Positions 1 through 30,848 of a DNA stretch of 64,000 nt are shown piece by piece (the first letter of the stretch is position 1; every line of letters starts with the position of its first letter). The notes beneath the pieces were generated by a model. It searched no databases. It was not told the origin of the DNA and was given only the letters and a program-made list of their open reading frames with translations. The stretch is from positions 72,001 through 136,000 of the forward strand of contig JAHLKD010000068.1 in assembly GCA_025526935.1 (NCBI GenBank). Reading direction: 5' to 3'. A program made the position numbers and the translations under genes. Source of the DNA: Cladochytrium replicatum (Eukaryota > Chytridiomycota > Chytridiomycetes > Cladochytriales > Cladochytriaceae).

Positions 1-117
1 GGAGCTGCCAGGACAGGCGAGAAGGGAGTAGGGATCAGGTTGCCAAATCGGGAAAGGGATTTCAGGTTGACGCACCTGTACTATTAGCTAGACTGTTAGC
101 TGATGTTCAGGTAAAAG

Positions 118-324
118 CTATTCGTATTCCAAGGACTATTCCAATCGGAAATGACGGAGACGAGGAAGAACGAGATTGTCATCGTTGATTTCGACAAATC
201 TACCATAACTCGTATGCTTGCCTTCGCTTTCTCCGGATCCTTGAGAGAAACGCCATCCCCGTTCATCCACTTCTCGTCACTAGAATTGCAAAGCAACATA
301 GGTCGTCCAGATCATCGGTGCTGA
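118..324 (+). pseudogene. BTB/POZ-like N-terminal fragment
   Basis: This open frame reads like the middle of a BTB domain. It has a short FQSEM-type stretch, then NEIVIVDFD, then a helix and strand ending MLAFAFSGSLRE, matching the BTB pattern of an exposed strand followed by a 'mL.F.YsG' helix. It has no proper start and stops after about 65 codons, before the C-terminal BTB helices. Those helices seem to lie on the opposite strand at 334-540. BTB domains mediate dimerisation and cullin-3 binding. A broken or rearranged gene is the simplest reading, but one exon of an unresolved gene is possible. The call rests on pattern resemblance only. Confidence 0.3.
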
Positions 325-333
325 GAAAGTCCG

Positions 334-540
334 TTAAAGAATAGTATCTTGAGCCTCCTTCAGAAGACTGTCGCTTCCGAAATGATCTGCGGCACGGATA
401 AGGTGGACAAGCTCCGAGATCGATGCGTTATGAAGTAGCGATCTATATAGGAAAGGCTGAAAGATCCAGGGGCGGCACATATGGCTCGATTTGGCATGCC
501 ATTGTGGTATCAGGTGGTCGTCAACTCTCGTGATCGACAA
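334..540 (-). pseudogene. BTB/POZ-like C-terminal fragment
   Basis: On the minus strand this stretch encodes SELVHLIRAADHFGSDSLL followed by KEAQDTIL. It resembles the last two helices of a BTB domain ('L..AA..F....L...c...l'). It opens with an ATG, but nothing resembling the BTB N-terminus precedes it on this strand. The complementary N-terminal half lies at 118-324 on the plus strand, facing it. The two pieces together suggest an inverted, broken BTB gene. The 541-820 interval next to it shows nothing else. Confidence 0.3.
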
Positions 541-821
541 AGATGATGAGGTCTGGGATTTGAGTGCTTTTTGCGGTCAAAAGTCCGTTTACCAGTTTTG
601 CTATAGTGGTAAATCGTTTGCATAGACAAAATATTGCATTATCTCGCCAGCAACCTCGCTGCTGCACCTTTTCTTTGTGACAACAGAATTGACCATATAT
701 TCAGACGTGCCCACCTAGCAATTTCGTTACGACGATGTGTTTGAAACACCGGTCTCCAAATGAAGAATACACCTTCAAACTTTATTCAAATTCTTCATAG
801 ATCAGTTTGGTGTGATCAATT

Positions 822-2394
822 TCATCCCATGAGGCAACCGTTGAAGTTCTTGCAGGAGAGACGGCACTGGGCAAGCATAAAGTTTGGATTCTTGTTGCAT
901 TCGCCCTGACTTGCCCATGTCGCACAGCTGCTGGCCGGCGAGTACGTGTCCCTACAGAACGATTGCGCCGAGCATCCCCTTCCTGATCGGAGCGGACAGT
1001 TGATAAAGTCTTCAACAACCTGTGTATTGGTGTTCACGACGGAGCAACCAGCCTGTTCTTTCAACTGGCTGCATTCGACGGCTGCGAAAAGTTCACGTCA
1101 GAATGGAATGGAGAACTGTCCAAAGTACTCACGGGCGCTCGGACAGGTATTGTAAACCTGCCTTGGGGCGCTTCCAATCTGCTCGAAGCGGGTGTAATGT
1201 GCCGTTCGAGATGGGACAATCTTGAATCTGTGACCCTCGGTTGACACGAAATTGGCGATTTCTCCAGGTTGCAAGGCTTTCTGGATGACCTCGGCGCCGT
1301 CATAGTTGATCCAGTATACCGTCGTGATCTCGTTGCAGTTGTTGACCAACCAGATCTTGCGCTGTTTTGAGACTGAAGAGGTGAGCGAATACCACTTTGA
1401 TCGGTATCCAGAGTCTTCGATTGTTGAAGTAGGTTAGTGAAACATAATTCCATATCTACCCAACTCACCCAATTTGTACAGCGTTTCAACGAGAACGCAG
1501 CCTGCTGGGTCCACACGACATAGATCGGGTCTTGTGTAGGGCCAGTAATCATTGATTCTGTTGCCCTCGTCAGCGCGACTGATCATTTTGAAGACAAAAG
1601 AATCCAGATGCTCACCCAAAGTATGCCTCAGTTAGTTCAGCAAAGTATTCGGCTTCGTTGGTGTTGCCATAGTGCGGCCCACCTCCCAGCTGCCCATACA
1701 CCATGCAAGTATCGATGTTGTCACATGTGGGGCTAACATTCACACGCCTGTACGCGGTGTTGGCATAAAAGGAAGGCCGTTTGGTATAAACGTCCCCGAT
1801 TGTAGCATAGAGGTTGTTGAACGCTTCGAATGCGTGAGCCAGCTCATGAAGGAACGCAGTGGGCTGGTCGGTGTAGTCGACGCAGTTGGCGAACACTACG
1901 ATATTACCCTGTTTTAAGGAACATAGAATACATGATCCTTGACATCTCCAAGCTTTGCACTTGCTGAAGTACCTGCTTCTCCGGATTGATGTTTGGGAGC
2001 ACGCTGGTACCTACAGGGTGAAACAGTGCACATGTTGATGTGCCCGTGTCGTTATTCTCAGGATCCACCCAGTACTAATGGAACGGAATTCGAGTTTCAT
2101 CGCGCGGTATCTCCGTAAGTATTAATGCTCACCGCAGTCGGAAGGCCGTCAAGTACAGGGATGGCAAGATCGGACACGACGTCAAGTCGCCCTTGCACCC
2201 ATGGCCTGATTACACCGAGATTCAACGCCTTGTGAAACAAAATGTTGCGGCCGCGATACGTTTCCTTTATGTAATCGGTGGTTGGCGCCCATCTGTTTCA
2301 TTGTTGGTCAGGAAACAGCACGCATTGCAGAACGATGCACCTACGCAAACGCTGGAGTAGCGAGGAAAGCCAGCAATGGAAGGGAAGGTTTCAT
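822..2394 (-). CDS. secreted HExxH metallopeptidase with VHL-beta-like and ShKT domains, copy 1
   Basis: A multi-exon gene for a predicted secreted zinc peptidase. Exon 1 (2394-2345) encodes a 17-residue signal peptide (MKPSLPLLAFLATPAFA) and splices to WAPTTDYIKETYRGR. The zinc site HELAHAFE is at about 1830-1845, and a downstream EYFAELTEAYFG supplies a likely glutamate ligand, as in gluzincins. Next comes a segment with YWINYDG, a LQPGEIA turn and a GHRFKI strand, matching the beta-domain pattern of VHL. The C-terminus (about 822-1000) is a six-cysteine ShKT module containing CATWASQGEC and CRLSC. It probably acts outside the cell. Signal, peptidase and ShKT are clear from sequence; the VHL-like call is inference. 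A paralogue with the same order lies at 33084-34649. The substrate is unknown. Confidence 0.7.
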
Positions 2395-2850
2395 GACTGA
2401 TACCAGGTTAAGATAACTTATGGCACTGTTGTGCTACTTATGCCACCGCTGACTGCTGTGCTACTCCTTTTTTTTGCAAGCTCGATAAAATTTTATAGTT
2501 CTGAGCAACCCACAAAACTTTTTGGTTGCAGGGAATCACAATCCTTCTGTTATTAATGTATCGAAAGACAAAAAAAACAATTGTCAAATGCATTAACTGG
2601 TTTGGGTGTGGTGGGCAGAAAAATAGGCGGAGCGCGCATTGTTAATCGGTTAGCCACTTATGTTCATCATTTGTGCACGGGGTGAATCAATTGCGCACAG
2701 GGTGAAGACTTTGAATCAATGCTGATAATGTGGACAAGGATTGATAATCTACAACAATTTGCAGCACCAGTAAAAACTGTGGAAGCGAACTCCCACACGC
2801 AAAAGCAGGGGAGTTGCTGTGTTCTGCAAACCTTCGTAGCAGCTTCTTTG

Positions 2851-3473
2851 CTAGTTGCTTCCTCGAAGCTTCCATGTGAAGCGTTTTACATTTCCAAAGT
2901 TCCAAGGCTTTAATCCATGAGGTTGCGAAACATAAACAAACGCTCTGGGGCCACCTCCAAACCGCACACTACTCGGTACCTCTAGCTTCTTCATTGATCC
3001 ACACAGGTCATCCATCGTCATGTCTTCTCCAGGATTGTTATATAGCGATTTCGAAGGGTTTGGGGCATCATCCGTTTCGCCACCATCGTCATTCTGCTGA
3101 AGGGGATATGGTTTTGGATGTTTCTTCTTGACACAGCTTCTCTTCCTGGGTTGTCAACGATGAGAAGTTGAGCATTCTATGATATGGGGGTGCAATTTGG
3201 GTTCCATGCCAACCCCATTTTCGTCGGTATTCATGGAAATCGAAGCACAATTGGTGTAAACATGTCATCCGTGGTATGCTCACCAGTGGGCATGTCCGCG
3301 GGACCAACTTGGCCACCACTCGTTTTATCGGCAGCCTTCTGTTCCCTCATCATCCTCCTACGCTCACGTTGATTTGTCCCAGCCTTTTCCTTTTTCCTTT
3401 GATAAAATCTTCGGATCCCGTATCGTTGGTTCATTGGTGAGTGATCCGTCCGTTCCTTTAGTTCCGTTCTCAA
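2851..3473 (-). CDS. hypothetical charged protein, probably two or more exons
   Basis: A frame of about 99 codons without a stop runs from about 3147 down to a TAG at 2851-2853. It is lysine-rich at its start (KRSCVKKKHPKPYP), then acidic (GEDMTMDDLCGSMKKLEVP), and ends KRFTWKLRGSN. An upstream open frame on the same strand (3473-3231) is rich in Arg, Lys and Gln (RRFYQRKKEK) and could be a preceding exon joined through the intron ending CAACCCAG. No family is recognised and the start is not settled. Expression data would be needed to call it real. The neighbouring 2395-2850 and 3474-4161 intervals show nothing further. Confidence 0.3.
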
Positions 3474-4161
3474 CCCTTTTGACTAGAGTGGCGTATGTCG
3501 TGCAGTCTCTGTGTTTCCTCGATAGTGGCGCGTCGGCAATATGAGCGTCAGGACCTTCTATGAAGTGCGCTTCCATTGGCATCGGTGCTCAGATCTTGTT
3601 CCACATCCAAGCACAACATCCCAGGAGGAAGCTGTGCATTTCGATCAAATGATATTTTCGCTCATGCACACTAGTGTTTTAAATGTACGGGGACATCAAT
3701 CCACAAAGCACTCGAACTTTTGAAAAATACTATTGCTGAGCGCAAATCGGAACCGTTGAATAACATAACTTACAGCTCTTCTGTTATGCTCAACAAGTGT
3801 GAATCGTGGCCTTCGGAGGGGTGGAGGGAGAGATAACGGTTGTTGAGGAGTCTGGGTGGCATATCGAACACATATGCCGGTGTTCCGAATCGCAATGAGC
3901 TTCAAACTCCCCGCTGGTATTAAAGAAGGTGGATCGACGAATCATCCTCCGATTTCGCACTCAAACACTCTAAGAATTAGCTGTTGAACGAAATAGTGTC
4001 ACTGTCGAGTTTTAATAAAATATCCTTTTCGCTGCTGCTCCGGCTCCAAGCAAGTAAACTTTGGAGAAAAGAAGAGTTGCTGGAGCGCAAAGTCTTCTTC
4101 CTCCACAAGTGCCTTTCACTTTGCCATCTTGTTCCCACCTCTTGTGTTCTCTCACCTCAAA

Positions 4162-5894
4162 ATGCTCGGAGCGGAGAGAATTCCGAGTCGCTCGGCGTCA
4201 CCGCAGCTGGAACTGCAAGTGCAACCTCAGCAAGCACCCGTGCGCACTGTCCGCTTCGACAGCACGGAGCGCTTCGAGGACACATTCGAGTTCGAGGAGG
4301 ACGAGGAAGGTCTTATCGCATACAGTGATAGCCCGGCCTCTCCTTCTTCGCCGCTACCGCCACCACGACAGCAAAAGAAAGCATGGAGCCTCTTCTCATG
4401 GAAATCATCCTCATCATCAACCGCAGCAGCCCAACTTCCAGAGCAGCAGCAGCAACCCCGACCTCTTTCTCCCCTTCCACCCCACAACTCGAAACCACTC
4501 AAAACGGCACTTAAAAAATCATCATCTTACCCACCGCAACATCATGCTCCGCCATCTCCTCCGCTTACTCCGAATTCCGATGACGACGATGACTTATTGG
4601 AAAGTGAAGAGATTGAAGATTTGCAAGGGGGTGGTTCGTCAAGGAGACGCATCGAGTTAACGGAGAGCTCGATTGCGGAGATTCGAGAGGAAATTGAGAC
4701 AAAACATGCTCATCAACCGCCAAGCTTATCAGCAGTTGCACCAAATCTTTTGAGCACCGCCCTCTCTAATCTGGTTTTGCCAGTCATTATTTATTACCTC
4801 ACCGTTTCTGTTTTCAAGGGCCATCAGGTAGTAGTGACGTGCTGCAGCTAAGTATTTTATATTGACTTGAATATTAGATTCTTGGGTTGGCGTTGTCGGC
4901 CGTCCCCCCGGCGGCGGAATCGCTCTATTTGCTGTATAGTCGTGGAAGGATGGACGCAATTTCCTCCATTGTGTGAGCATGAACTTTGCGGGCAATAGCG
5001 CCAGACTTTAACCATATTCTTGATTACAGTTTTATCTCAATCGTTTTGAATATGGCAATTCTCGGAATTACCAGTTCGACAACTGTCGGACTTCTCCGTG
5101 AATCTTTCGTGACTTCTCTTTTCGGCGCAGTATTCCTCCTTTCCATTCTCTACCCGCGACCCTGGACGACAGTCGGCCGTTGGCTCTGGAAGCGTATTAA
5201 CCTCCTCATCGGGCGACGCGTCTCCTTTACCCAATCGAAATCTCACGATGGAGTCGACGCTGAGTCAAATAACATTGCAGACTCGTGCTCCCCTGACCGA
5301 ATGTCCAAGAACCTCGCGTTCTACCTGGCTCGTGAGCTTGGCGGCACGAACGAGAAAAGACAAACTGTCTCCGTGCAAACAGCCGCACGGTCCTCCTCGT
5401 CTACTCGTACATCGACTACGCACGAGATGACTGCATACTTTGACCATCTTTGGGAAACATCTTACGGCTTCCGTATTGCGACCGAACGACTCTCGCGAGT
5501 GTGGGGGATCACACTTCTGATCGAGTCAATTGTTCGATGCGTGCTCGCGTTTGCGCTTCAGGACGTGTCTGTTGAGTGGTTTCTGATCGCTTCGCCAACG
5601 CTTTTTGCCGTGACTGTTGGAACCTTGGTGGGTGGCTCGGTGTGGTATTTGAGAAGAGTTGTTGAGGAAGAAGCTGCGAAGGCTTTGGCAGAGGCTGAGC
5701 TTGAACTGGGGGAAGGCACTGGTGTGGAAGAGAGGGGAGTCCGGGTAAGGCAGGAAAACAGAGGGAGGAGCTGGTTTGGATGGCTTCGAGACCGTAGTTT
5801 CAGTTCCGCTCCGATTCAGTTGAAAATGGGCGGTAGAGATAAGAGCTCATCCCTACCCTCTGGGACAGGACGATACTCCAAAATGGTTGGATAA
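4162..5894 (+). CDS. multi-pass membrane protein, VC0807-like
   Basis: Three exons (4162-4827, 4878-4972, 5030-5894) join in frame to 541 codons with GT/AG introns. The start is the ATG at 4162; an upstream open stretch has no ATG. The N-terminal 200 residues are low complexity, rich in Ser, Pro, Gln and Asp/Glu, and probably cytosolic. Hydrophobic segments follow: LSNLVLPVIIYYLTV, ILGLALSAVPPAAESLYLL, then two segments around FISIVLNMAILGITS and FVTSLFGAVFLLSILYPRP, and two more around VWGITLLIESIVRCVLAF and VGTLVGGSVWYL. The spacing and the 'RLSRVWGITLLIE' segment recall the VC0807-like family of bacterial and fungal membrane proteins, whose role is unknown. The gene model is strong; the family name is tentative. 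Confidence 0.6.
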
Positions 5895-6512
5895 TTCTGC
5901 AAACGATGGGCTTTATTGCACCCTTGGGATTCGTGCCACAACTTTGTTGATCTTCTTTTCGACTATTGTTGCTTTGCTTTGCCATTTGCCTGTGCCATTT
6001 TTTTGTATTCTTTTTTTAAATGTCCGACCAGGTTATATTCATTTAGTTTTGGTGTTGCTCTAAAATTATATTTCGTCCCTCATTTTGACCCTTTCACATC
6101 TTTGGTTTTGCTTCTTCCATTTCCTTTCCTTTTTTGTTCCTCCCCTGAGTGCACCACCATCGCCAATGTGAAAGAGGAACAACCAAAAATGGGCTTCCGT
6201 TGAACTTTTCGCTTCCTTCTTTCATTGAGCTGCAGTTGTGTTGTTTCCTACGAGCTTGTAGCAACGTTGGAAGAGCTTTGATTCTTCAACCGAAATGTAT
6301 AGAAAAAAGCAAATGTGGTGTCTTAACTAAATCATGAGTCGGTTCCAGTTATGATCCCACCAGTTGCCCTGCCGCCATTTTCGGACCTCCCAAGCCGAGT
6401 TCAGGTTCACTTCTGACTCTTTCTGCGACCAGGGAAGATCTTAATAAATAAGTAATTAAATTGGGAGAGCAAAGTAATTATTATCATTTCGCTCGATCCA
6501 CACTGTTACCCT
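5895..6512 (+). other. intergenic, T-rich 3' flank
   Basis: This stretch after the membrane-protein gene is T-rich on the plus strand. Its hydrophobic open frames (Phe, Leu, Cys-rich) are what T-rich untranslated sequence gives. It probably holds the 3' UTR of the upstream gene and the promoter of the first seven-helix gene. No RNA gene or repeat is visible. Confidence 0.4.
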
Positions 6513-8520
6513 ATGTCCACCGTTGTGGGGTGGGTGGTGATAGGCGTCGCTACTACGATTTCAGCGTTCGGAACACTGTACTCCGCGTATCGTGCGTCAA
6601 AGGAGCCAAAAGTGTTCAATTGGATTCTATCTGGGTCGTTTGCGTTGATGTTTTTATCGGATGTACTGGGGTTCGTTTTCGCATTGCTTCCACTCAACCC
6701 TGCGGCTTTCATCCGCTACCTGGTTATCTTTGACATGGCTTTATCGTTAAACATACTTGCTACAGCTGTCAAGGTATCGTTTCTCACATCCTGTCAAACA
6801 GTCAACGTTTCTCATCGCACGCATATAGACCATTTGCAATCTGGTTCGCTTCGAGGGAGTGTTCCACAGCATACTTACCACAACACGGTTCCCATATCGC
6901 ACCTGGATGAACCATGCGCTGGTCGCAATCACCACCATCATCACCCTCTTTGCAATCACGATTGCCTGGGTTATCGACTTTTATCCTTACTATCATGTCG
7001 GCAAGCAGCTTACTGACCTTCCTGCTCAGTTCAATGGCGGTGTGGTCGCAGGAGGTATCGCTTCGGTGTGGTTGGTTTCGGTCGACCTTAGCATCGCGAT
7101 TCTGAGTTTATTGGTTGTGCGGATGCTCAGGAAGAAGTGGAGGACTCTTAAGCAGAGGCGAAATATCCGGAGTGAGCGGACAGCGGGTGCAGGTCGCCCG
7201 TCGACAAGATTCAACTGGACTGCTCTTGGAATGCAAAGGAGTTACGTGGACACTCCTTCCAATACACAGAATTCTCGTCTCACGAACCATGGTGGGCTTG
7301 ATTCGCAATTGTCTCAAAAATCCGCTGCTTCGCTGAGAGAGTACCCCGAGCTCCAGTCATTCAAACTTTCTATGCTGGCTGACAACCTCCCCATGAAAAA
7401 TGAGTTGAGCTCTGGAGCGGATGAGGAGGAACTGGTTTCAACCTCGACAGACGTTTCCACAAATGAAAGCCCATCAAAGTGGGTGTTTCTCAACGCCAAG
7501 ATGCCAATATCTACACTTTTCGCACAGCGACAGAGAACATTTGAAATGCCGGAAAGGTCTGAGCCGAAATTCTCCCCGCTGGGGTCCATCCAGCCGTCCA
7601 TTCACGAGGAGCTTTCGACTTCCACCTCATCCGGGGTTTCTTCAAGATCCTCATATCCGCACCCACTGATTCATGTTCAAAAGAACTCGGAGCCGAAGTT
7701 CACTCAGCTTGGGTCGATCCAACCGTCCTTATATCCCCCATCGACAGCAATCTCATCTGGCGTTTCTTCCAGATCCTCAGAACCTCCACTCGAGATTCAC
7801 ATGCAAAGGCAATCTGAACCGAAACTCGCCCAACCATCGTTATACCCACCATCTTTGGTTTCATCTGCTTGGGGTTCCACCAAATCCTCATATACACCAC
7901 ACCAACCAACTGAAGTCAGCGTCGAAAGTACCGCTGCTAATTTGCCCAACATTGAAACTACCTCTGCGAATTTGCCCTCGGGAACGAATGAAATCGTACC
8001 CAGCGCGAAACGGACTCGATTCGATGGGCACGTACAAGAATCTCTGGCAAGGGTAAGAACACCTGTCCCGACTATCTACGATGATCGGTCAGAACGTGGA
8101 GTCCGGACTATGTACTGGATCTTCACATTCCAAATCCTCATACCTATCATCGTCGTTCCCTTCTTCCTTGCCTATTCCGCCAACCTATTCATAAGTGGTA
8201 TGTTGCGCCGCGCGTGTAATCGAGACACCCAAGTTCGCTCAACAACTTATTCAGGAATTACGACCATTTTCCTCCGAATCTACAATCTTATCATCTTGGA
8301 ATACATCTACCTGATTCGCACGGTAGTTCATTATACATCCATACAGGCTATGGACGAAGCGTCGACGGATAACATTGGCGTACCAAGATCAAAAACCAGC
8401 AATGGTGCTCATCGTGGACCTGTCGTCGGACACAACGATGATATGGCTATTGAAGAACAACGTGATACAAATGTGAACAGCGGTGATCAATCCGATACCG
8501 TGAACTTGTCGGTGAACTGA
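6513..8520 (+). CDS. seven-helix membrane protein, tandem copy 1
   Basis: Exons 6513-6773, 6829-8197 and 8255-8520 give 631 codons. Seven hydrophobic segments are visible: three in exon 1 (around ISAFGTLYSAYRAS, FALMFLSDVLGFVF and MALSLNILATAVK), two in exon 2 (after YRTWMN, and around IASVWLVSVDLSIAILSLL), one after DDRSERGVRTMYWI and one in exon 3 (YNLIILEYIYLIRTVV). A Ser/Pro-rich loop of about 310 residues lies between helices 5 and 6, with repeated IGSIQPS/SLYPPS units. A short N-terminus, a long fifth-to-sixth loop and a cytosolic tail resemble GPCR topology, but no known family motif is seen. Intron 2 is 57 nt without a stop, so retention would keep the frame; its position is set by the paralogues. 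A membrane receptor or sensor is inference. Confidence 0.75.
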
Positions 8521-9599
8521 TGGTAGGCATCATACTTGTATTTTCCTTTCTTTTGCTACCCGCAATCGGGGCAACAATTCCCTCGTGTAAGATAGTCCTA
8601 GCGAACTCCCGTCTCAGTGCACTCCTACCATTTGTCAGTGCACACTTTTCATTGTCTTCTTTGCAATATATGAGTCACATACATTTTGGTTGCACTCAAT
8701 CCTTGTTGTTTAAAGATAAAATCGAGTTATTTTTGGCAGGCAGATGACGCTTATATCAGTCCACACTGACGGCATCACTGACGGCATTTGACTTCCTTTT
8801 TTTCCGCTAAGCAGTTTCACGTACAAGTCAACTTGTCCATCGTCGTTTGTTGATGGTCCAGACTCTGAACCTTCAACTTTATCATTCCTCCTGGTTCAAT
8901 GCGTCCATGAAAGCAATTTGAAAAATCAATCGAGGACATGGACTTAAAAAATGATGTTCGACTTTTTGTAAGGGAAGTGGAAAAGTCTGTCAAGAATGAT
9001 CTATATAAGTTGATGCTTTCGTTTTCAAGCAGAGTCTGACTCGACCACTCAAATTGAGTGCTTTCTAACAACAATGTACCAGCAACATATCACCAATTGC
9101 AATTCCAATAGCAAACTTTCCCATCATCCATAATTTTCTTGCAGTGAGACAAATTTCCCAAATTTCCACATTATTTGATCCCCGTTTCGCTGGTTGATGT
9201 GCGTGGTGGGAAGCAGGATGGACCAGGGGGATGCTGTCGACTCTATCTTTGATGAATCCGATCGTCGTCGTTTTGATCTTATCTCCTGACTAGAGCTAAC
9301 AGAAGCACCTGGGTTTCGACCACCACAAAGTTTCTCATGACTTTTCTATTCTACGTGTATTCGTACAGCCTGCATTCATAGAGCACCACGGCCCGACATA
9401 ATCTTATTTGTATTGTGTAGCAGTATCAATCGCATACAGTTGGCAAATTTTGCGGTTAAGGAGTAACCGTGGGGGCCACGCGCGCGCTTCGTTAAGATTA
9501 TATTTTCAGCTGTGTGGCCGATCACCTCTGCCATTTTGGCGGTTCATCAAATCAGCAACCAGAAAACTCTTTGTTTTGTAAGCGGACCAGTGGACCACT
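8521..9599. other. intergenic between tandem copies 1 and 2
   Basis: About 1.1 kb without a supported gene. A short direct repeat (CACTGACGGCAT twice, near 8764-8788) is visible. Minus-strand open frames here show no domain and no splice-consistent partner. It probably holds the 3' UTR of copy 1 and the promoter of copy 2. Confidence 0.4.
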
Positions 9600-11360
9600 A
9601 TGTCCACGTCTGTCCGCGGATGGATAGTGCTCAGCGCAACCGCATTGCTCTCAGCATTCGGCTCCATATACTCTGCCTACCGTGCTTCCAGGTCCCCAAA
9701 AGCCTTCAACTGGGTACTGTTCGGCTCTTTTGCGTTGATGTTTGTGTCAGACATGCTGGCATTCATGCCATCGTTTCTGCCAAGAGAACCCATGACCACA
9801 ACAGTGGTTTTCAACATGGTAACGAGCCTAAATATCACGGCAACGGCGATAAAGGTACGCAATAACTATTTGGAGTATTCTAGAGATTGACTTTTCTTCC
9901 TTTGATATTTAGACGATTTGCAACCTCATTCGTTTCGAAGGTGTGTTTCACAGCATTATAACAAGCACAACCCGCATTCCATATCGCACCTGGATGAACC
10001 GTGTACTCGTTGCGATCACCTGCTTCATTGCTCTGTCCTCCATTGCTCTTCTGTGGATCATCGACATTTACCCATTTTACAACAGCGGCAAACAGCTACC
10101 TGGGCTTCCGCCGCAGTTCACTGGTGGCCGGACAGGAGGCGTTCCTGCTGCCATTTGGATAGTTACTTTGGACTGGCTCATCGCGATTCTCAGTTTGGCG
10201 GTCGTGCGTATGCTCAGGAAAAAGTGGGGTGTTATCAGACAGAAGCAGAACGTGAGAAGCACATGGACTGCGACCGCTGATGCGGAACATACGCATGTTC
10301 AGCATAGCTGGCCAGTATTTGGAAAATTCAATAGTGAGGGGGTTAACACGTCGTATACGCACAGCTCGAACTTTCGGGACTCGGGAATTCCCAATGTGCT
10401 ATTCTCGACGAACTCTGCTGCGTCTCTCAAGGCGTATCCGGAGCTGCAATCATATAAGCATCCAACAATGACTTACAAGATCTCGATGTCGTCCATGGGA
10501 TCGAGCTCAAACAACTTTCATACTGGGCCGCCAGCATCCCGTGTATATGGAAACCCCCCATCTTCAATCTACCAGCAAAATCCTTACCAGCAAAGATCGG
10601 ACAACAATGTACAGCAGGCACGGTCGGAGTATGACTCACAGATTGGGTCAATTCAACCGTCCTTATACCCACCGTCGTCAACTGCTGGAGTATGGGCACC
10701 TTCTCCTTCTTCGTATCCCCCACATGAGCTTGATGAGATCGATGCACATCCATCGAAGTATTCGACTGAGGAAACTCACGTCGGTTCACCATCGAAAAAG
10801 AGCTGGTTTGGCCGGAAACGAAGTCGAAGTAGAAGGCGAACTTCAACAACTAACGACGAACGTTCTGAGCGTGGAGTAAGGATCATGTACTGGATCCTCT
10901 CATTGCAAGTGCTTCTCCCCATCTGCGTCATGCCATTCTACTTTGGCATTCGTGACCTATTTGTTAGTGGTATGTAATCTATCAATTATGATTTATGCTG
11001 CTGTAAATTACGATTTATGTTGAAATATTCCTCATTTAAACAGCCATCACAAGCATGTTCATAAGAGTATACAACCTCATCATTCTCGAGTACATTTACA
11101 CTATTCGGTCTGTCGTACATTATGCGTCGAGACAGGCGATGATCGAGGGCGTCTCGTCGACGAGCAACACTGACGGCACTTGGTCAAAGTCAAACAACAG
11201 CATGCAGAGGGACGTCGTTGTCACGGGGTACCACGGCGAACCTGCACACCATCTCAACAACACCCATGGGCCCATCAATGCCAACCTTGCAAATCCGAAT
11301 AGTGGTGAAGGTGGGGATATGTATGGTGCATCGCTTTTATCGCTTTATGGGAAGCGATGA
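9600..11360 (+). CDS. seven-helix membrane protein, tandem copy 2
   Basis: Exons 9600-9854, 9913-10969 and 11044-11360 join to 542 codons, with both introns at the same sites as in copies 1 and 3. The conserved landmarks are YRASRSPKAFNWVLFGSFAL in exon 1, CNLIRFEGVFHSI and YRTWMN at the start of exon 2, LAVVRMLRKKW after helix 5, ERSERGVRIMYWILSLQ before helix 6, and YNLIILEYIYTI in helix 7. The long loop is shorter than in copy 1, keeps one IGSIQPSLYPPS unit, and ends in an Arg/Ser patch (RKRSRSRRR) that could be a phosphorylation or anionic-lipid contact. The family is unrecognised. Confidence 0.75.
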
Positions 11361-12092
11361 CATCAATCTTCAAGTTTTCTTATCTGTTTTGCACTCGTTA
11401 TCACTTGCCTTCATCTTCACGTCACGCATGTCAATAAAATGTGCGACCCATTTCCTTCAATCGTTGTCAATGCTATTCTCATCCCTTATTTTTGGGAAAC
11501 AATTCCTCATTTGCATCGTGCTCGAGCCCATGTTTGTTTTACCCAGTTTGTGTATTTTTTGTCATACAACTTCGTTTTTCTCATCGCATTCTTAGAAGAA
11601 AGAAAGTGTCAAGTTTGTGTGATTAAGTGGAACACTGTCAAGTGGTCGGGAGGTTATTCAACATCACCATCTCGGCAAACCTTCATCCGAGCGCCACCAC
11701 ATCTGCACAGGAAAATTTTAGGCTCGGCAGAAACGAGTTCTTTGCAGTTGTGAGAAGGTAGCCTCTCGATCCATGTTTTCCAGCTGACGGTGTATGGAAG
11801 ATACCTGGTGGATCCCCATATGCTCCTCTCGTTTTGAATCACCGGACAAACGTTCTTGTTTCTGCGCAGCTCGCTCCAGGAAATATTTTGCTCCGAGTGA
11901 TAAGAAATTCACATTGTGATTCGTGATGCAGCACCACGGGAACCAAGCCGTGGAGAATCAGCTGAACCCTGTTTATACATATTCCACGGTCCTGCCTGGC
12001 CCTGCTTACCCCTTTTTGGCGAATGTCTATCGAGTAAAATCAACACATAACAAAGTGAAACTGCCACTCTGAGACGGTATCGATACAACTCA
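11361..12092. other. intergenic between tandem copies 2 and 3
   Basis: About 730 nt with no supported gene. The plus strand after 11360 is T-rich and looks like 3' UTR. The open frames on both strands are short and without domain signal. Confidence 0.4.
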
Positions 12093-13995
12093 ATGTCGAC
12101 AACGGCAACCACTGAGGGGTGGGTTTTGCTTTCCGGAACGGTGCTAGTCTCGGCCTTAGCATCGGTGTACGCCGGCTACCGTGCTTCCAAGCTGCCAAAG
12201 GCATTCAACTGGGTTCTTTTCGCCTCTTTCGCGATGATGTTCACATCCGATGTGCTTGCTTTCGTTCCATCGTTTATCCCAGCTGAACCTAAAGTGCCTC
12301 CATTGGTGATCTATGACGTTGTACTCAGTCTAAACATACTTGCTACAGCCTTGAAGGTAACCATGTAGCGAGATAAAGAAGCATTCTGTTGAAATACTTG
12401 CAGACCGAATGTAACCTCATTCGTTTCGATGGGGTGTTCCACACTATTCTTGGAGGCCGCTTCAAATACCGAACTTGGATGAACTACACGGTCGCTGTTA
12501 TCACTGCAATAATTATCCTCGGCGCAGTTTCGCTCGCTTGGCTAATCGACATGTATCCGTTCTTCAACAATGGAGTGCAGCTAGCTGGGTTGCCTCCGCA
12601 AAACCAAGGCGGCGCAACTGGCGGTGCACCGGCAACAATCTGGCTTGTGCTCGTAGACATGATCATTGCGGCGTTCAGTTTGTCGGTAGTGCGGATGCTG
12701 CGATCAAGATGGCAGGCACTGAGGAATCGACAGACAGTGCGGAGCGGGAGCAGCGGATTTGGACCATACAGCAGCAGCTCTGGACTCACGAGTGGCACCG
12801 CAGTCGAAGTCTTGGCTTCCCCAGTCCCCAACCAGTCGTATCCCGTTGATGCTCGTCAACCGGGCATGATTATCGCTAAAACGTCTTCGGAGTCGCTTCG
12901 CGGCCATGCACTTGCCTCTTTATCATCTGTTGGAGGTAACCAACCGCTTGCGAACAAGACATCAACTGCGTCCCTACGAGAGAACCAAGTTCTTGCGACA
13001 AAGTCATCTGCAACGTCTCTTAAGGAGTATGGTGCTCAATTTCAACCTCTAAACTACAAGCCCTCAGTATCGTCGATAACGGGATCTCACACCGGGCCCG
13101 GCCAAATGAATTTGGTATTGCAACTAGGAACTTCACCGCAGCCTCAACAGGTTCAAGCGACACTCACGGCACGATCTCCCCCGACTTCGCCGTTCGGTAC
13201 ACTGCTGCACCACAATCCTTCCTACCCCCCGTACATGACTCCGTCCACAGCGGCTGCTGCGAATGGATGGCAAGGCTCTGCGGGGAACTTGCCCCCGACA
13301 ACGAACGGTTGGCATGGTTCCTCCCCCATCTCACCCACTCAACAGAACCCCGATGCAAGCCCATGGGCGGAGCCGCGTTCTCCTGTATCTCCTCGGTCTC
13401 CAAAATCGAGTGCGGAGTTTGGACAGCGATCCAACGGTGCCTCGTCGCGTGGGAGACGTACGACAAAGAAGAACCGCGGCGCGAGCGTGTTTGACGATCG
13501 GTCCGAGCGGGGTGTACGGATCATGTACTGGATCTTATCATTGCAGCTGGCTTTGCCTGTTTGCGTGATGCCATTTTTCTTCCTATTCCCAGGAAACCTT
13601 TACGTTAGTGGTGAGTGGAATAAGATCTCGCCGTTGAATTCCCACTTAGCAAAATTTTATGGGTTTGCCCCCTACCAGGAATTACGGGTATCTTCCTTCG
13701 CCTGTACAACTTGATCATCCTCGAGTTCATGTACACGATTGGAACGGTTGTGAAGTACACCTCCAAGCAGGCGAACATGGGCGGATCGACTACGAGCAAC
13801 AGCAACAGCAGTAACAACAACACAGCATTCAACAATAGTAAGCCAAGCGGCGAGTACAATGTGGCAAGCTATTCAAAACCTAGTGGCGAGTACAACGGTG
13901 CAAGCTATTCAAAGCACAGCGGTGAGTTTTATGGCGGAAGCTCCAGCCATTCAATGCCCAGCGGGGAGTTTTCGAATGGGGTCTATGGGAGATGA
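12093..13995 (+). CDS. seven-helix membrane protein, tandem copy 3
   Basis: Exons 12093-12356, 12404-13610 and 13679-13995 join to 595 codons. The helices and intron sites match copies 1 and 2 (YRASKLPKAFNWVLFASFAM, CNLIRFDGVFHTI, YRTWMN, LSVVRMLRSRW, DRSERGVRIMYWILSLQ, YNLIILEFMYTI). The loop between helices 5 and 6 is rich in Ser, Pro, Gln and Asn and has ATKSSATSLKEY-type elements also present in the other copies (SAASLREYPELQ in copy 1). The C-terminal tail carries a short Gly/Ser/Tyr repeat (KPSGEYN, KPSGEYNGASYSK, KHSGEFYG, MPSGEFSNG). Copy 3 has diverged most in the loop and tail, while helices and flanks stay alike. Confidence 0.75.
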
Positions 13996-14109
13996 TATTT
14001 CACCAAACAAAAGTGAATGTGGACAGTAAAGTACGACTGTGTAGTTTTGGAATGTTACAGTGGGAGAAAGGTGCACAAAAATACAAATATATAGATGGTT
14101 TGGATACTC

Positions 14110-16677
14110 AGAAACGCAATCACCAGCGCACTTAAGTAAACGTGGGGCCAAAGGATCCCACCGGCCGACATGATCGGCACCCCCCTGCCACTGTTGCAAT
14201 CTGAATGGATCGCGGGAAATCTTTCCGCCGAAACTGAAATCTGGTGGTCCTCACCGGCCCCCTGGAACATCCAGAGTCTTCAGGAATATCTTTAAGATAG
14301 AAATCAACAGTGACGAAGGTCCGGAATCCGATCGCGAGGAGGTTCATTTAAAACCATATGGTGGGCAAGATCGCCAGCGATCTGAGAAAATCATCTTCTA
14401 CCCACGTGCGGGAAGTTGTCCGCGGCGGCATCAGAGAGGATCCGCCTGAGCTGTTCAAAGATGGGAGGACAAGGAAGAATTTTTGGGGAGAAACCGCAGC
14501 ATCTACCTCAATCAAGTTGCGAAAACAATAAAGAATGGACAAAGCTAACAGATCATAGAATTTCAGCCCGCGAAAAGTCCATAATTGATCGGGAAAGCGT
14601 CGGTCGGGGTCGCGGGCATGCCAGTGGCGAACGTGCGCGTGAGTTTTGTGTAGACTTGCTGGTGTGCTTTGAGCGTGTTTGGACCGTACGAGGTCGCACC
14701 GCCCTCGAAGAACTGAATGCCGTATTCCTCTGTCGTGGTCACGTAGGAGGCGTAGCTGTTCGAGAGCCCTTTGATCACAATTTCGGCGTCAGAGTCAACG
14801 ACTTTGTCCGCGATCAGCTGGGCGAGGACTGTTACGGAGGCGACGCCCGGCCAAGGTGGAGATTTCGGTCGGGAGGCCAATGATTGCAAACTTGCTTGTG
14901 GTGACAAACCTGCCAGTGCCAAACATTAGATGTTGGTCGATTCAATAGAAGAGCAGTTAAGCATACAGCTGAATGGGTAGTTTGTGGGGCTGCCAGCTGA
15001 TGGGACAGCCATTTCTCCTGTGGAAAGTAAAATCTGCTTTGGTGCTTGACAATCAACCAGCTCTTTTGACGGAGTGGGGAGTAGGTTGTGAAGGAAGTTC
15101 CACAGAGCCTTGTTGTCGCCTTGTGGGTCATTATCGCCCTTGGTTGCTATGTGAGCATTGAATTGATTTCCTTACGTGTTTCGGCTCACCTGCCACGAGA
15201 TTCCACCGGTACCTGGGTTGTCCGTTGTTCCGGCAGCGAAGGCATGGCTGGCTTGCAGATCTTCGTGTTAGTTCCTTCAAGGTAAATCTTTGGGAACTCG
15301 ACCCAAGAGTGTCTATAGTCCGCATTTATTGCCGCCGAGTTGAGAACCTTTGTCGCAATCGGAGACTCCACGAGTGTCTTCGCTCTCAGATACTGCCTCT
15401 GTCCAATTACCTCGGCTGAACGCGTGTCGCCTCCCGTCTCGTACTCCGGACCCTCGAGAAACAAAGCTCGATCTTTCCACCACACAAGTCCTTGTACCCG
15501 TTGCACTCCCCATCCGTATCGATGCAATGCGCTCCCTCCATCTTCGGCGACACGTCTCCAGCATTCGACTGTCCAAAAGCTGCCACGAACCCAGTGTATC
15601 CAAGCTACTGGTGCTCGAGCTCGTACCGGTACGAAGCCTATCCCTTGTTATCGCCCGAAACTCTGTGGTTCGACACGTTCATCGAGGTGCCGTGAACGGG
15701 GGACCAGTTGACCATGTCGCGAAGGTGCCCGCCGTCAGCCGTGGAGATGGCCAAGAGAGTCATGTCTTGGTCCACCTGAGCGCGCTCGGAGGCGGGGTTT
15801 GCGAGGTCGGAAGCTTTTGAGCGGTTGATGGAGGCATTGGTGAGCGGACCTTTTGTGAGGACGAGTTTTCCCTCAGATATGTCTGCGTGGGCTTGGGCAA
15901 TGGCATCTGCGAGGCCGTTAGCAATGGCATCTGCGGGGCCGTTAGCAATGGCTTCGCGAGCACTGGGTGTGCGACCCGAGTTGGGAACCTGGTACAAGCT
16001 TGCAGATTATTGCGGTTAGATGTAACGTGTGAGACGATCAAAAGTTAAGCAAACAAATCAACTTGGAAACAACCGGGACCACTGTCGGTGTGCGTCGAGG
16101 AAATGAGCACGTTCTCGCTGGAGTAAAGCGCGGCGTCGGATGCCAAGAGACGGGAACTGAGGTACGAGATAGCAAGCTTCTTTGTTCGCACTGAAGAGAT
16201 CCCGGTGTCGGACGAAATGTAGACCACGCGACGCGATGGTTTGTCTGACGCAGCAAAGATGAATGCTACAAATGAGGTGTCTTCATTCACATCTGCGACG
16301 GAAATCGTCTTCTTGGGCCAGTACATCGTGCACGGACCCGGAGGTGAATTCCATTTGCCTGGTTGCTCAGATCAGCGTACCTTGCGAAATAAAGATAGCT
16401 CAATAGATTTCACACAGCGCAAGCAAATACTTTATCGCATCGAACAGTGCCAGCTCTCCAATCTGTCCAGTGATGTCCGCGCTGCCCACTCCAACCTAAA
16501 GCACAGTCGGATACGTTTTTGGACGCTCTCGAAAGACTAATGTCTCTAACCAGGAGCTTTCCCGATTGGTGAGTTTCCAAGATGTTGTGAGCGTCATTTT
16601 TCGATAAGTTGGTCGATTGGGCGACCCAGAAAAGCGACTGCTATCGCTTGCAGTACAAGGATGATCAGTGACCTCAT
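14110..16677 (-). pseudogene. neutral (non-lysosomal) ceramidase pseudogene
   Basis: Minus-strand exons carry neutral ceramidase hallmarks: a signal peptide (MRSLIILVLQAIAVAFLG) at 16677, VGVGSADITG, NGIHLRVRAR, the zinc-site segment ISSTHTDSGPG, NWSPVHGTSM, SGDNKG, FVAAFGQSNAGDVSP, then AFAAGTTDNPG and EEYGIQFFEGGATSYGP. Neutral ceramidases cleave ceramide to sphingosine and fatty acid. This copy is broken. The tyrosine after SGDNKG is a TAG (15638-15640) and a second TAG follows in frame (15605-15607). Frame changes are needed between LCFSR and GPEYETGG (near 15450) and between ICKPAM and AFAAGTTD (near 15245). The C-terminal domain is recognisable only as scattered pieces around 14130-14420. 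Substitution-type stops make sequencing error an unlikely full explanation. Confidence 0.75.
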
Positions 16678-16863
16678 TGCTCTAACTTTTTGATATCTGT
16701 GAGAGAGGAATCAAACAGGTTTGGAAAAGGTTTGATAGCGGAACTCCCGTTTATAACGTCCCGCCACCTAATTGCGAAACTTCTGCAAGGGGTGATAAAA
16801 ACTTGTCTTCCATTATAGGAAAATTGTATTGAACACCTAATGAAGATCTACCCACAAAATCGA

Positions 16864-17400
16864 TTACTTCATCGCGTTCGCAACCTCACAAACCGATTCC
16901 AGAATAGACCCATCGAAACCCCACTTCCGCTGCTTCTTTGCAATCGCTGGAACGTTGCTATCCCTTCCTGAGATCAGCATAAGCTGTGTCTATCTCGCTC
17001 CTGATCCAAACGTGTGAGCCACTACCCCGTTTCACTGTCCTTGAAAAATGGCCGGCTGAAAACGACTCCGCCGCTAAGACCCCATTCCTCGATGAAGTGC
17101 ATGGTGTATAGCCTGCCGCCCGGGCGTCGGCGGAGGCGACGACTTCCTCACCCGAGCAGGATAAGAATAGAGCAAAAATAGTTGATCTGTAGAGAAACAA
17201 TTTGAGTTTTTGCAAAAAGCGGAAGCAGATTTCGGGTTTCACACCTGTTTGTAGTGGAGCAGGAGGCGAGCTTCGGGATGGAAGGTCTCACGTCTCCCAC
17301 GATGGACTACTTCGAAGATGGATGTAAGCGTCGAGATCTGGCATGTACAGGTTGTCCGCTTCAGCTTCCTACGACAGGGGTATTTAATCTCAACCCGAGT
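16864..17400 (-). pseudogene. unassigned coding remnant or unresolved gene
   Basis: Several minus-strand pieces look like real protein but sit in different frames. They are NLYMPDLDAYIHLRSSPSW then ETFHPEARLLLHYKQ (about 17375-17255), LYTMHFIEEWGLSGGVVF then SRPFFKDSETG (about 17110-17020), and KKQRKWGFDGSILESV ending EVANAMK and a TAA at 16864-16866. Possible GT/AG junctions exist (for example GTGTGAAACC after HYKQ), so short introns may explain part of this. A TAG follows DSETG in frame. No family is recognised. The 17401-18113 interval shows nothing else. Confidence 0.3.
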
Positions 17401-18113
17401 TTCGGGTGGGGTTGTCTATGACAGAACGATTCCGAATACTTAGCAGAAAGTTACTAAATGAGTTCGGGTTGGCAGCCAAACCTCTAACGCATTTTCATTG
17501 AAAGCTTGGTAAAGACTTCCTGCCTTTCTAAGACTACTTTCTGGGATTGTTGGGGTCCCTTGATGCGGAAACTCCAATGCGTTCCGAAAAAAAGTAGAGT
17601 GGTGGTCAAACCTTAAAGACGAGGTGAGCGAACCTTGGAGTTGGAGTGCAGTGGAAAGCTGCGTACAATCATGATAATTGACCAAATTCAACAAACGATT
17701 CACCAAGCTTGAAAGACGATGCACCAAGCTTGAAAGCCGCGTCCATTGATAATGTGTTTTCTCCACTTGTGAGACCTGAGTTCGCACGCACCCCTAAACA
17801 GATTTCGCCCGAGATGCGAAACATGTCTGCTATGGGATCATTACAGCTACCCCACACAACTCACTCAACTAGATGCAATAAATTCTATGTCAGCAAAGTG
17901 CTAAAAAATTAATAAATAAACCACGAACTAAGCCTTGCGTATTTCTTCGATAGAACAGATGGGACGACGATTGGGGGTAACAATATTCGTATTGATATTT
18001 GGGATGTTCTGATCCGAGCGTGGTTTGATAGCCAACGCACTTCCTGCACTTCAGAGTCACGGAGCTGCCAGCTGCCCGCTCGTTTCAGGAGTTCCATTCA
18101 TCGGTACTCTACC

Positions 18114-21804: not shown

Positions 21805-22773
21805 CTACCAACCCCTTGCAGGTCTAAACACCCTCATGAAAAGGAACAAGAAAAGCCAGACCACGCACACAAACGCAATGATTCCCATCGAAATCCAAAA
21901 GGTCCCCCACGTCCTCGCGCTCAACTTCTTCAGCTTCTTTCCTTCCTTTTCCAGCCTCGCCACGTTCCCATCCAGGCTCTCCGCAGCCGCATCGACAACT
22001 TCCTTGTCGAGCTGAAGCTGTCCAGACATTTTGAGGTGGTTCTCTTTGAGAAGTGCAGAGAGCGCGACGAGGCGCGCTGTGAGTTGCTCGTGGGTGACGT
22101 TTGCTGCAGGTTCGGTGGCGTTGGATGTCGAGCCGGCCCGGGATTGTTGGAAGGATTCAAAGCGTTGGCGGAGAGTTGGTTTCGGTGTTTCGGAGAGGGA
22201 GGATGATGGAGCGGGCGGAGGGTTTGAGGTGGGTTGCGGTGCGGGCGGTTCAGGTTTCGGAGAATGCTTTGCCCATTGTACAAGTGTAGCATCGACTTGC
22301 TATCAATGCGAAGTAATTGTCAAATATGACCCTCGATGTATCGATCCCAAACTGACCTCTCGAAGCGATCTCTCGACGTCCTTCATCTCCTCACGGCTAC
22401 TCCGTCTCACCAACGCCCCCGGCAATGGATCCACTACCACTTTCGCCTTTGGTTCTGAATTCAGCGCAGCGAATGCGGCCATCGATTCGACTTTCTCTTC
22501 GTACTTTGAAATCCGCGCATCGATAGCTTCACGTTCTGGCGACGCCGATGCGGAGTCTTGGAGTTGCTTTATGAGGGTTCTGAGGTAATCTACGAGCTAC
22601 CGAAAGTCAAGTCGGTATTTGGGAATGCAAGCAAGTAACAGTCAGAAGTGATGATAGCATACATTCTGGAGACGGATACGGTCCAGAGGTGATGTTGGCG
22701 GTTGGAGCGTCTGAGATGTGAGGATTCTGGAAATGACCCATTCGGCCGCAGCCGGTGTTGAGGTGGTGTCCAT
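21805..22773 (-). CDS. USE1: Use1-like SNARE
   Basis: Three exons (22773-22663, 22596-22357, 22299-21805) give exactly 281 codons. The C-terminal third has the Use1 layout: a heptad-rich SNARE helix (QLDKEVVDAAAESLDGNVAR), a lysine-rich linker (KEGKKLKKLSARTWGTFW), and a single hydrophobic anchor (MGIIAFVCVVWLFLFLFM) near the end. The middle is Pro/Ser-rich, and the N-terminal part has helices around DYLRTLIKQLQDS and REEMKDVERSLRE. Use1 is an ER SNARE that works with Sec20 and Ufe1/syntaxin-18 in retrograde Golgi-to-ER transport and is a tail-anchored protein. The family call rests on the C-terminal pattern and length. It is divergently arranged with the RanBP1 gene, about 260 nt apart. Confidence 0.75.
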
Positions 22774-23880: not shown

Positions 23881-24273
23881 ACTATCAGCTTTCTTTGAGT
23901 CGGCGATGTGCTGAGGATGATGAAATGGTTTTTTTTTGTCTTTTTGCGACACATTCGCTATCTCCCCCTTTTCTTTTTATTGCCATTATTGGGTCGTTTT
24001 TCATTTTGGGTGTTTGACTTTTCTCTCGTCTTTGCCCTCGCACCACGTTTGTCTGGTTCTAGTGTCTCCCCTTTCGCATCACGTATTCCCTCTAATTGTG
24101 TGCTTTTCACGCATGTTCTCTAATCTTGTAACCCAGTAATACCCGTTTCCAACCCTCCTCACTAAATGATATAAAAAGAAGTTCGTCTGACAACAAGTGA
24201 ACTGCTCAAATGATCACGTTGAATATTTTTTACAACCACCGTGCATAAACTCTTCCCCCTACTTAACCATAAT

Positions 24274-24326
24274 TCCCAAATAACCAATTTACTATTGTAA
24301 TCCCAAATAACCAATTTACTATTGTA
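24274..24326. repeat. 27-bp tandem duplication next to the tRNA gene
   Basis: A 27-nt unit starting TCCCAAATAACCAATTTACT occurs twice in direct succession (24274-24300 and 24301-24326) just past the 3' end of the tRNA-Ala gene. The two copies are identical over the 26 nt that the second retains. No run of four T residues is seen on the tRNA strand within it, so it is not an obvious pol III terminator. Confidence 0.8.
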
Positions 24327-24329
24327 GCT

Positions 24330-24402
24330 TGGAGAACCGGGGTATCGATCCCCGTGCCTCGCGCATGCTAAGCGCGCGCTCTACCATCTGAGCTAGTTCC
24401 CC
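24330..24402 (-). tRNA. tRNA-Ala (anticodon AGC)
   Basis: Read on the minus strand, this 73-nt sequence folds as a standard tRNA. The acceptor stem GGGGAAC pairs with GTTCTCC (one G-U pair), the D arm contains TAGCTCAGATGG (the A box), and the seven-base anticodon loop TTAGCAT has AGC at its centre. The T arm is ACGGGGATCGATACCCCGG with the B-box sequence GGATCGATACC. No intron is present and CCA is not encoded, as expected for a eukaryotic nuclear tRNA. Confidence 0.95.
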
Positions 24403-24419
24403 AATCGCCAAATCCACTT

Positions 24420-25354
24420 CAAATGCTGAGGTTTTACGGTTTTTTAAGTTTCCTGACCTTCAGTTTCGGCTTCAATATCTGCAGTTTCAGATGTTTCAAC
24501 GTTGGCTGGATGATGATGCCCCTGATATGGTTCACTCTATGTTGTCATTCTTTCTTCACCAGGGAAAGCACTTTCGTTGTTCTCCTGTCCCTTTCAACAA
24601 TCACTTCCTCTTCCCGGCTGCAAATGTTGTAGTTCCCAAACCTTCTGATGTTATCGCAAATCACTTTCACCAAGTAGCCTCATCTGCCTATGGTTCTATA
24701 GCTGCTAGCTTTGCTCCCCTTGCATCTGCACACCCTCATGCGCTAGCAATTGCTCCTCCATGCTTCCCTATTTCGTCAATCTTGAGGCTTCTGCAGTATC
24801 GCCTTGGACGTTTGTTTTATCACCCCCGCAAGCAGTGTTGTCACTGCCGCACTGCAACTCTCTCTAGATCTCATGTTTCAGAATGTTTGCGTCTTGACCT
24901 ATTGTTGCCTCCTGTTCCTGTTCCTGTTTTACAACTTCCGCTTGACGTTGCAATTGATAGCCTTCGTCCACTTCGCATTGTCAACCCAGCGAATCTTGCA
25001 CCGTGGTATCTAGTTTTTCGTTGTCTCCATAAGATTTGGCTTCACTGTATGGGTCTGCCATTAGAAGTTTCCCCTCCAGACTCCCTCTTTGGCCCTGCAT
25101 TTGTGGATCTTTAACGTTTTCTTTTCTCATTATTTATTACTCACCTGTTTTTTGGCACCTTAGCAGTATCTGACGGGTTGCCACAGGTTTGAGTTTACAT
25201 TCTCTGTTTTGCTTTGTTGCTTTTCCTTATGCTGCGCGCGCTTCCCTATGTGCTGGTCCATGACCATCTTGTAAGGCACTTTGGGTGTTGTTTTTTGTTA
25301 TGCACTGTATCTGCAAAATAAATAATAATATTGTTAAAAAAAAAAAAAAAAAAA
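24420..25354 (+). mobile_element. 5'-truncated LINE, family A, copy 1
   Basis: This is the 3' end of a non-LTR retrotransposon related to, but diverged from, the full-length element next to it. The frame (KFPDLQFRLQYLQFQMFQRW onward) aligns with the region after the reverse transcriptase of the neighbour and includes a CCHC-like cysteine/histidine motif (CCHCRTATLSRSHVSEC). It ends FGPAFVDL and a TAA near 25113. A 3' UTR of about 240 nt follows, ending in AATAAATAATAATATTG and a poly(A) tail of about 18 nt. Sequence homology begins about 18 nt upstream of the tRNA-Ala 5' end. Confidence 0.85.
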
Positions 25355-25435
25355 TTCTCTCTCACTCTCTCTCTGACTCTCTCTCACTCTCTCTCACTCT
25401 CTCTCACTCTCTCTCTCTCTCTCTCTCTCTCACAA
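25355..25435 (+). repeat. (CT)n polypyrimidine tract at the 5' end of the full-length LINE
   Basis: About 80 nt of CT repeat with occasional A (CTCTCTCACTCTCT units) lie between the poly(A) tail of the upstream LINE and the ATG of ORF1. It may be the element's own 5' UTR or a target microsatellite. The stretch has no other content. Confidence 0.8.
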
Positions 25436-25439
25436 ATCA

Positions 25440-30205: not shown

Positions 30206-30360
30206 TGTTTTGAAACATTTTACTTTTCCTACGGCTCGCACGGCTCCCCATGTGCTGCCAATTTACGTGTATTTTTACACTTGTATTTGGATTTTGCACC
30301 AGCGGGTGATATGTATTGGTTGGACAATAAATACATATTATGAAGTTCAAAAAAAAAAAT

Positions 30361-30848
30361 CACTAGATCTCATGTTTTAGAATGTTTGCGTCTTGACCTA
30401 CTGTTGCCTCCTGTTCCTGTTCCTGTTCCTGTTTTACAACTTCCGCTTGACGTTGCAATTGATAGCCTTCGTCCACTTCGCATTGTCAACCCAGCGAATC
30501 TTGCACCGTGGTATCTAGTTTTTCGTTGTCTCCATAAGATTTGGCTTCACTGTATGGGTCTGCCATTAGAAGTTTCCCCTCCAGACTCCCTCTTTGGCCC
30601 TGCATTTGTGGATCTTTAACGTTTTCTTTTCTCATTATTTATTACTCACCTGTTTTTTGGCACCTTAGCAGTATCTGACGGGTTGCCACAGGTTTGAGTT
30701 TACATTCTCTGTTTTGCTTTGTTGCTTTTCCTTATGCTGCGCGCGCTTCCCTATGTGCTGGTCCATGACCATCTTGTAAGGCACTTTGGGTGTTGTTTTT
30801 TGTTATGCATTGTATGTGCAAAATAAATAATAATTGTTAAAAAAAAAT
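30361..30848 (+). mobile_element. 5'-truncated LINE, family A, copy 2
   Basis: This copy begins abruptly after the poly(A) tail of the full-length element, at a point corresponding to the Cys/His motif region of copy 1 (CTAGATCTCATGTTTTAGAA). It is nearly identical to copy 1 from there to the 3' end. It has one more GTTCCT unit in the PVPVPV stretch and an altered tail (AATAATAATTGTTAAAAAA). The coding part ends GPAFVDL as in copy 1. Confidence 0.85.

Follow-up and report, generated by a model that had tools for sequence, protein, structure and literature searches.

The ways in which zoosporic fungi detect attractants, hosts and mates are, to our knowledge, largely open, and one locus of the chytrid Cladochytrium replicatum raises the question of whether a family of seven-helix membrane proteins could be part of the answer. 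The locus lies in a stretch of 64,000 nucleotides (assembly GCA_025526935.1, contig JAHLKD010000068.1, positions 72,001 to 136,000 of the forward strand), here called the window, which is part of contig 68 of a genome searched as 198 contigs totaling 50.5 Mb. At window positions 6513-13995, a first-pass annotation made from the sequence letters had marked a tandem trio of genes with the topology of G protein-coupled receptors (GPCRs). We find that the trio belongs to a conserved, duplicated seven-transmembrane (7TM) family whose cytosolic face is well kept, a concrete candidate set for sensing in zoosporic fungi. The family is a well-supported orphan of a numerous kind, and we hold it to be an even bet that its members are orphan seven-helix receptors with GPCR topology.

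A tandem trio and its paralogues

The three genes are all read from the forward strand. The first, g1 (6513..8520; exons 6513-6773, 6829-8197 and 8255-8520), encodes 631 amino acids (aa), g2 (9600..11360; exons 9600-9854, 9913-10969 and 11044-11360) encodes 542, and g3 (12093..13995; exons 12093-12356, 12404-13610 and 13679-13995) encodes 595. Our reconstructed models, intact and with three exons each, agree exactly with the span and the codon counts of the first-pass annotation. All six introns are of the GT...AG type and 47-74 nucleotides (nt) long. Intron 1 (6774..6828 in g1, 9855..9912 in g2 and 12357..12403 in g3) is in phase 0 and intron 2 (8198..8254, 10970..11043 and 13611..13678, respectively) in phase 1, and both fall at identical alignment columns in the trio, as the shared intron positions described earlier had implied. 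In g1, the first intron lies towards the cytosolic end of helix 3 and the second, which is 57 nt long and open in frame, at the start of helix 7.

When the genome was searched with the g2 protein (expectation value, E, up to 10), 25 matches were obtained, which lead to seven intact genes; for this single query the count is therefore at least seven. Outside the window, g1' (622 aa) and g2' (545 aa) lie on contig 43, and further single genes lie on contig 139 (C139, 507 aa) and contig 101 (C101, 379 aa). All seven members have intron 1 at alignment column 93, in phase 0, and intron 2 at column 616, in phase 1. Beside g2' (contig 43, 294512-295035) is the relic of a third gene, g3' (L028), which was not in the genome-wide list obtained with g2 and appeared in a local search. 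It retains the first ~130 coding bases and the helix 7 and tail region and has lost the part between, while the adjoining g1' and g2' are both intact. The duplicated family foreseen by the annotation is thus the window trio, four more intact copies and one relic in the same genome. An unrooted tree of the cores pairs g1 with g1', g2 with g2', and C139 with C101.

Positions 283085-297868 of contig 43 are collinear with 115-17410 of the window, a block of ~15-17 kb whose pieces share 69-82% DNA identity, non-coding parts included, the exceptions being matches across paralogues and a short piece in inverse orientation. From this collinearity we infer that the trio was already assembled before the block was doubled. 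Other gene pairs are present in the genome, namely C139 and C101, and G-alpha genes on contigs 62 and 99 and on contigs 59 and 35. Given the block and these pairs, the genome may be doubled or hybrid.

Pairwise identity within the trio is 57-62% for the cores and 21-34% for the loops between helices 5 and 6. Nei-Gojobori ratios of nonsynonymous to synonymous substitution (dN/dS) for the three close pairs are 0.11 (g1/g1'), 0.09 (g2/g2') and 0.23 (C139/C101) in the core, and 0.37, 0.12 and 0.52, respectively, in the loop. The close pairs are under purifying selection, strongest in the helical core, with the exception that in g2/g2' the constraint on the loop is nearly equal to that on the core. 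Judged by the dN/dS of core against loop, the genes look functional and their helices more constrained; identity and dN/dS agree in upholding the earlier observation that helices are conserved while loop and tail diverge. Since the contig 43 copies of g1 and g2 keep their frames and introns, with core ratios this low, the trio genes are more than a product of chance.

Topology and conservation of the cytosolic face

Hydropathy gives seven groups of hydrophobic segments in each trio protein, overlapping peaks having been merged by eye, and helices also appear in partial AlphaFold2 models of g1, in line with the seven segments first counted. Exon 1 of g1 is modelled, at low confidence, with helices at residues 2-28, 32-58 and 63-86 (mean predicted local distance difference test score, pLDDT, 65; predicted template modelling score, pTM, 0.35). 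Exons 2-3 are modelled, also at low overall confidence, with a helix at 2-16, which would be the end of helix 3, and others at 23-50, 73-120, 419-463 and 471-513, which would be helices 4-7. Block pLDDT is ~70-82 at the centers of these last four, with an overall mean of 48.5 and a pTM of 0.29.

Charges were counted with helix ends set by hand on g2 and with long loops counted at their ends only. Across the seven members, Lys and Arg together number 2-3 in loop 1, 3-5 in loop 3 and 11-14 at the two ends of loop 5, against 0-1 in the N-terminus and 0-2, 0-2 and 0-1 in loops 2, 4 and 6, respectively. This distribution argues for an N-terminus outside, a C-terminus inside and a helix 5-6 loop on the inner side, a question that the tail taken alone would not decide. 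Hydropathy, the charge rule and the partial models agree with the proposed GPCR-like topology: seven transmembrane helices, N-terminus outside, C-terminus inside and the long loop in the cytosol are all predicted.

Long cytosolic loops joining helix 5 to helix 6 are a feature of several fungal GPCR classes. By length count, the corresponding loop spans 7132..8079 in g1 (316 aa), 10219..10854 in g2 (212 aa) and 12704..13492 in g3 (263 aa), all on the forward strand. It is predicted to be cytosolic by the charge rule and, in g1, to be mostly disordered (pLDDT below 50 over most of its length). The description of this loop as very long and Ser/Pro-rich holds for the trio, where Ser, Thr and Pro together make up 34-36%, but it does not define the family: across the seven members, loop length runs from 98 residues, in one paralogue, to 316, with 29-36% Ser, Thr and Pro.

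Conservation is higher on the cytosolic than on the extracellular face. With four representatives, the fairer comparison, identity is 0.644 in inner columns and 0.537 in outer columns (permutation p 0.008); with all seven members it is 0.673 and 0.548, a difference reached in 0 of 5000 permutations. These p-values are rough, since neighboring helix positions are not independent. The fixed motifs that had been listed are real, but two need correction in detail: NLIRF reads NLVRF in g1, and ERSERGVR is exact in g2 only, g1 and g3 having DRSERGVR.

Receptor, channel or scaffold

The conserved cytosolic face, taken together with G-alpha genes elsewhere in the genome, is consistent with a family of orphan receptors, and these putative receptors would probably couple to G proteins. 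Heterotrimeric G-alpha matches occur at nine places in the same genome, class C GPCRs at ~15 and Dicty_CAR-type matches at 6, where we merged neighboring matches for counting. A further GPCR-like locus with a Gln-rich tail (L001, contig 152, 24721-25197) is just below the 7tm_1 cut-off (29.9 vs 30.5 bits). Kinship of the family with this protein was rejected, the core scoring 9.6 against the single sequence, under its reversed control (11.8). The genome also matches the ciliary radial-spoke family of motile cilia, and therefore flagellate cells are probably made. Its short introns and numerous class C receptors are in keeping with a zoosporic fungus.

Family members have 5-10 residues before helix 1, and the loop between helices 4 and 5 has 23. 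With almost no N-terminal domain, contact with a ligand would fall to the bundle and this loop: a small molecule or short peptide may bind inside the helix bundle, under the helix 4-5 loop, and activation would move helix 6. In class A receptors, an ionic lock sits at the end of helix 3 and the start of helix 6. A similar latch could form here between two invariant residues, the Arg of NL[IV]RF[ED]GVF, at the cytosolic end of helix 3, and the Glu of SERGVR, at the base of helix 6. A heterotrimeric G protein might be engaged by the cytosolic surface that the members share (YRAS..P[KR].FNW, YR[TS]WMN, VVRMLR and SERGVR), and the disordered loop and tail might carry regulatory phosphorylation sites. 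The more specific proposal of a new GPCR class that occurs in zoosporic fungi only, has a short N-terminus and its own G-protein-facing surface, and senses chemoattractants or mating signals, we consider unlikely.

Several results weigh against this receptor reading. In Pfam-A, none of the three full trio proteins and none of the seven cores passed any cut-off (of the four paralogues elsewhere in the genome, the cores alone were scanned), and profile searches of the PDB were empty at E up to 10. The first-pass annotation had likewise seen no signature of a named GPCR class, and these searches gave no match to a known non-receptor family, over cut-off in Pfam or at all in the PDB, that would overturn it. 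The seven-member alignment has neither DRY at helix 3 nor NPxxY at helix 7, where RF[ED]G at the end of helix 3 and Y[NM]LI[IV]LE in helix 7 stand instead, and an extracellular cysteine pair common to the family was not found in it. The first 20 residues of the tail are not clearly positive, with 1-4 Lys or Arg against 0-3 Asp or Glu. The AlphaFold2 models are partial ones of contiguous g1 pieces, at pTM 0.29 and 0.35, and that of exons 2-3 had no PDB match by Foldseek and VIA-align, which is uninformative at such a pTM.

The invariant charges buried among the helices add to this, as they would also suit a channel or carrier. All seven members have D51 in helix 2, K85 in helix 3, D172 in helix 5 and R245 and E253 in helix 7 (g2 core numbering, within predicted helices), and in a seven-helix channel or carrier such residues could line the path of an ion or solute, with the disordered loop as a regulatory domain. 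Transporters are also commonly tandem-duplicated, and the lack of any GPCR-family match in Pfam would fit this explanation as well. Yet Pfam gave no transporter or channel above cut-off, it is the cytosolic face that is better conserved, and the 3+1+3 internal repeat of SWEET-type proteins was rejected (hhalign score of helices 1-3 against helices 5-7, 10.9; 49 of 100 permuted nulls equal or better). On balance, we think a channel or carrier possible but doubtful. A non-signalling membrane scaffold, in which a long docking loop, itself disordered, is anchored by the seven helices, at the plasma membrane or cilium for instance, would explain the short repeated motifs inside the Ser/Pro-rich loop of g1 and the motif GSIQPSLYPPS common to the g1 and g2 loops. 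However, with loops anywhere between 98 and 316 residues long and helices that stay the same, it is the helices that look like the working part rather than the loop, and a scaffold seems to us decidedly unlikely.

It is also conceivable that the family is a highly diverged class C (glutamate-type) branch that lost its extracellular binding domain. An hhalign comparison of the core profile with three of the genome's own class C sequences gave a score of 25.0 with helices 4-5 in register, higher than every one of 450 column-permuted nulls (maximum 24.7) and than the reversed control (16.0). Two other class C sequences gave 16.6, and seven gave results that depended on the alignment setting: with '-M first' the same region was in register at 18.1 (E 0.1, with no null run), whereas with '-M 50' the best match shifted elsewhere at 15.7, and 51 of 150 nulls were as good. 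An unrelated membrane protein from the neighborhood scored 13.2-14.4. Promising with three sequences but unstable with the wider alignment, class C homology was not used as evidence, and on these profile comparisons a stable similarity to class C GPCRs is absent. The sole receptor model in the Pfam scan at E up to 10 was the class C model 7tm_3 on g3, at E 0.12 and below cut-off, and the few residues before helix 1 leave no large extracellular binding domain; the missing cysteine pair counts against such a branch too, and we rate it as very improbable. When a consensus of helices 1-3 was constructed, it matched 7tm_3 in that model's helices 5-7 (E 0.0068, again below cut-off). The match is out of register, and although a circularly permuted relation could be imagined behind it, it is probably due to chance and was treated as such.

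An orphan 7TM family is not surprising in itself, since unassigned seven-helix proteins are plentiful in fungi: section 3.5 of PMC12842992 counts 141,666 outside known GPCRs, in 1969 clusters and 1357 species. The same paper lists 17 fungal GPCR classes, which have seven helices in common with the trio, but neither the trio nor the cores have a Pfam match over cut-off to any family. The paper also proposes a new GPCR class made up of the DUF6534 seven-helix proteins of Basidiomycota, with consensus predictions in Agaricomycotina only. DUF6534 is likewise an orphan seven-helix fungal family, but it is absent among the Pfam matches of the trio and cores, and its model returned nothing from the C. 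replicatum genome, which is no proof of absence. The two families presumably resemble each other in helix 7 and in an acidic residue of helix 5, which we take as a lead only.

In the survey PMC3251606, a search of Chytridiomycota found no reliable homologues of Ste2, Ste3 and Git3 but several animal-like GPCR families; PMC5168858 gives ~100 class C GPCRs for anaerobic gut fungi. In C. replicatum, class C GPCRs co-occur with the present family, which shows faint similarity to them in one test but is without their binding domain or a shared extracellular cysteine pair. Class A and cAMP-type receptors are also small 7TM proteins, but the family has no Pfam match to 7tm_1 or Dicty_CAR. Opsins would have their retinal-binding lysine in helix 7, but all seven members are without a lysine inside this predicted helix. 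None of the 7, 54 and 46 pattern matches from three contig scans, two viral and one prokaryote, was a relative; as fungal genes are not expected there, these scans do not inform on the spread of the family across lineages. A description of the family was not found in the open-access literature, which is weak evidence, since the proteins have no public name.

Neighboring genes and a retrotransposon in the window

Upstream of the trio, 3997-5894 is perhaps one two-exon gene, with a Pro-rich part that has a weak PRCC match just below cut-off and a membrane part whose identity to the corresponding part on contig 43 is 87%. Just downstream of g3, two open frames on the reverse strand (14566-16006) match different parts of neutral/alkaline ceramidase. 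Near the start of the window, 1615-2010 on the reverse strand is a possible metallopeptidase fragment with an HELAH motif and a weak M90 match below cut-off.

A retrotransposon of the long interspersed nuclear element (LINE) type occupies 26714-30205, where a single open frame of 1163 codons contains endonuclease and reverse transcriptase domains. The open frame at 25377-26828, just upstream, may be the first open reading frame of the element, and the retrotransposon region (24001-32000) has a strong AT skew, of -0.31 and -0.35. At 21808-22299, the reverse strand encodes the membrane-fusion protein Use1, with a match above the Pfam cut-off.

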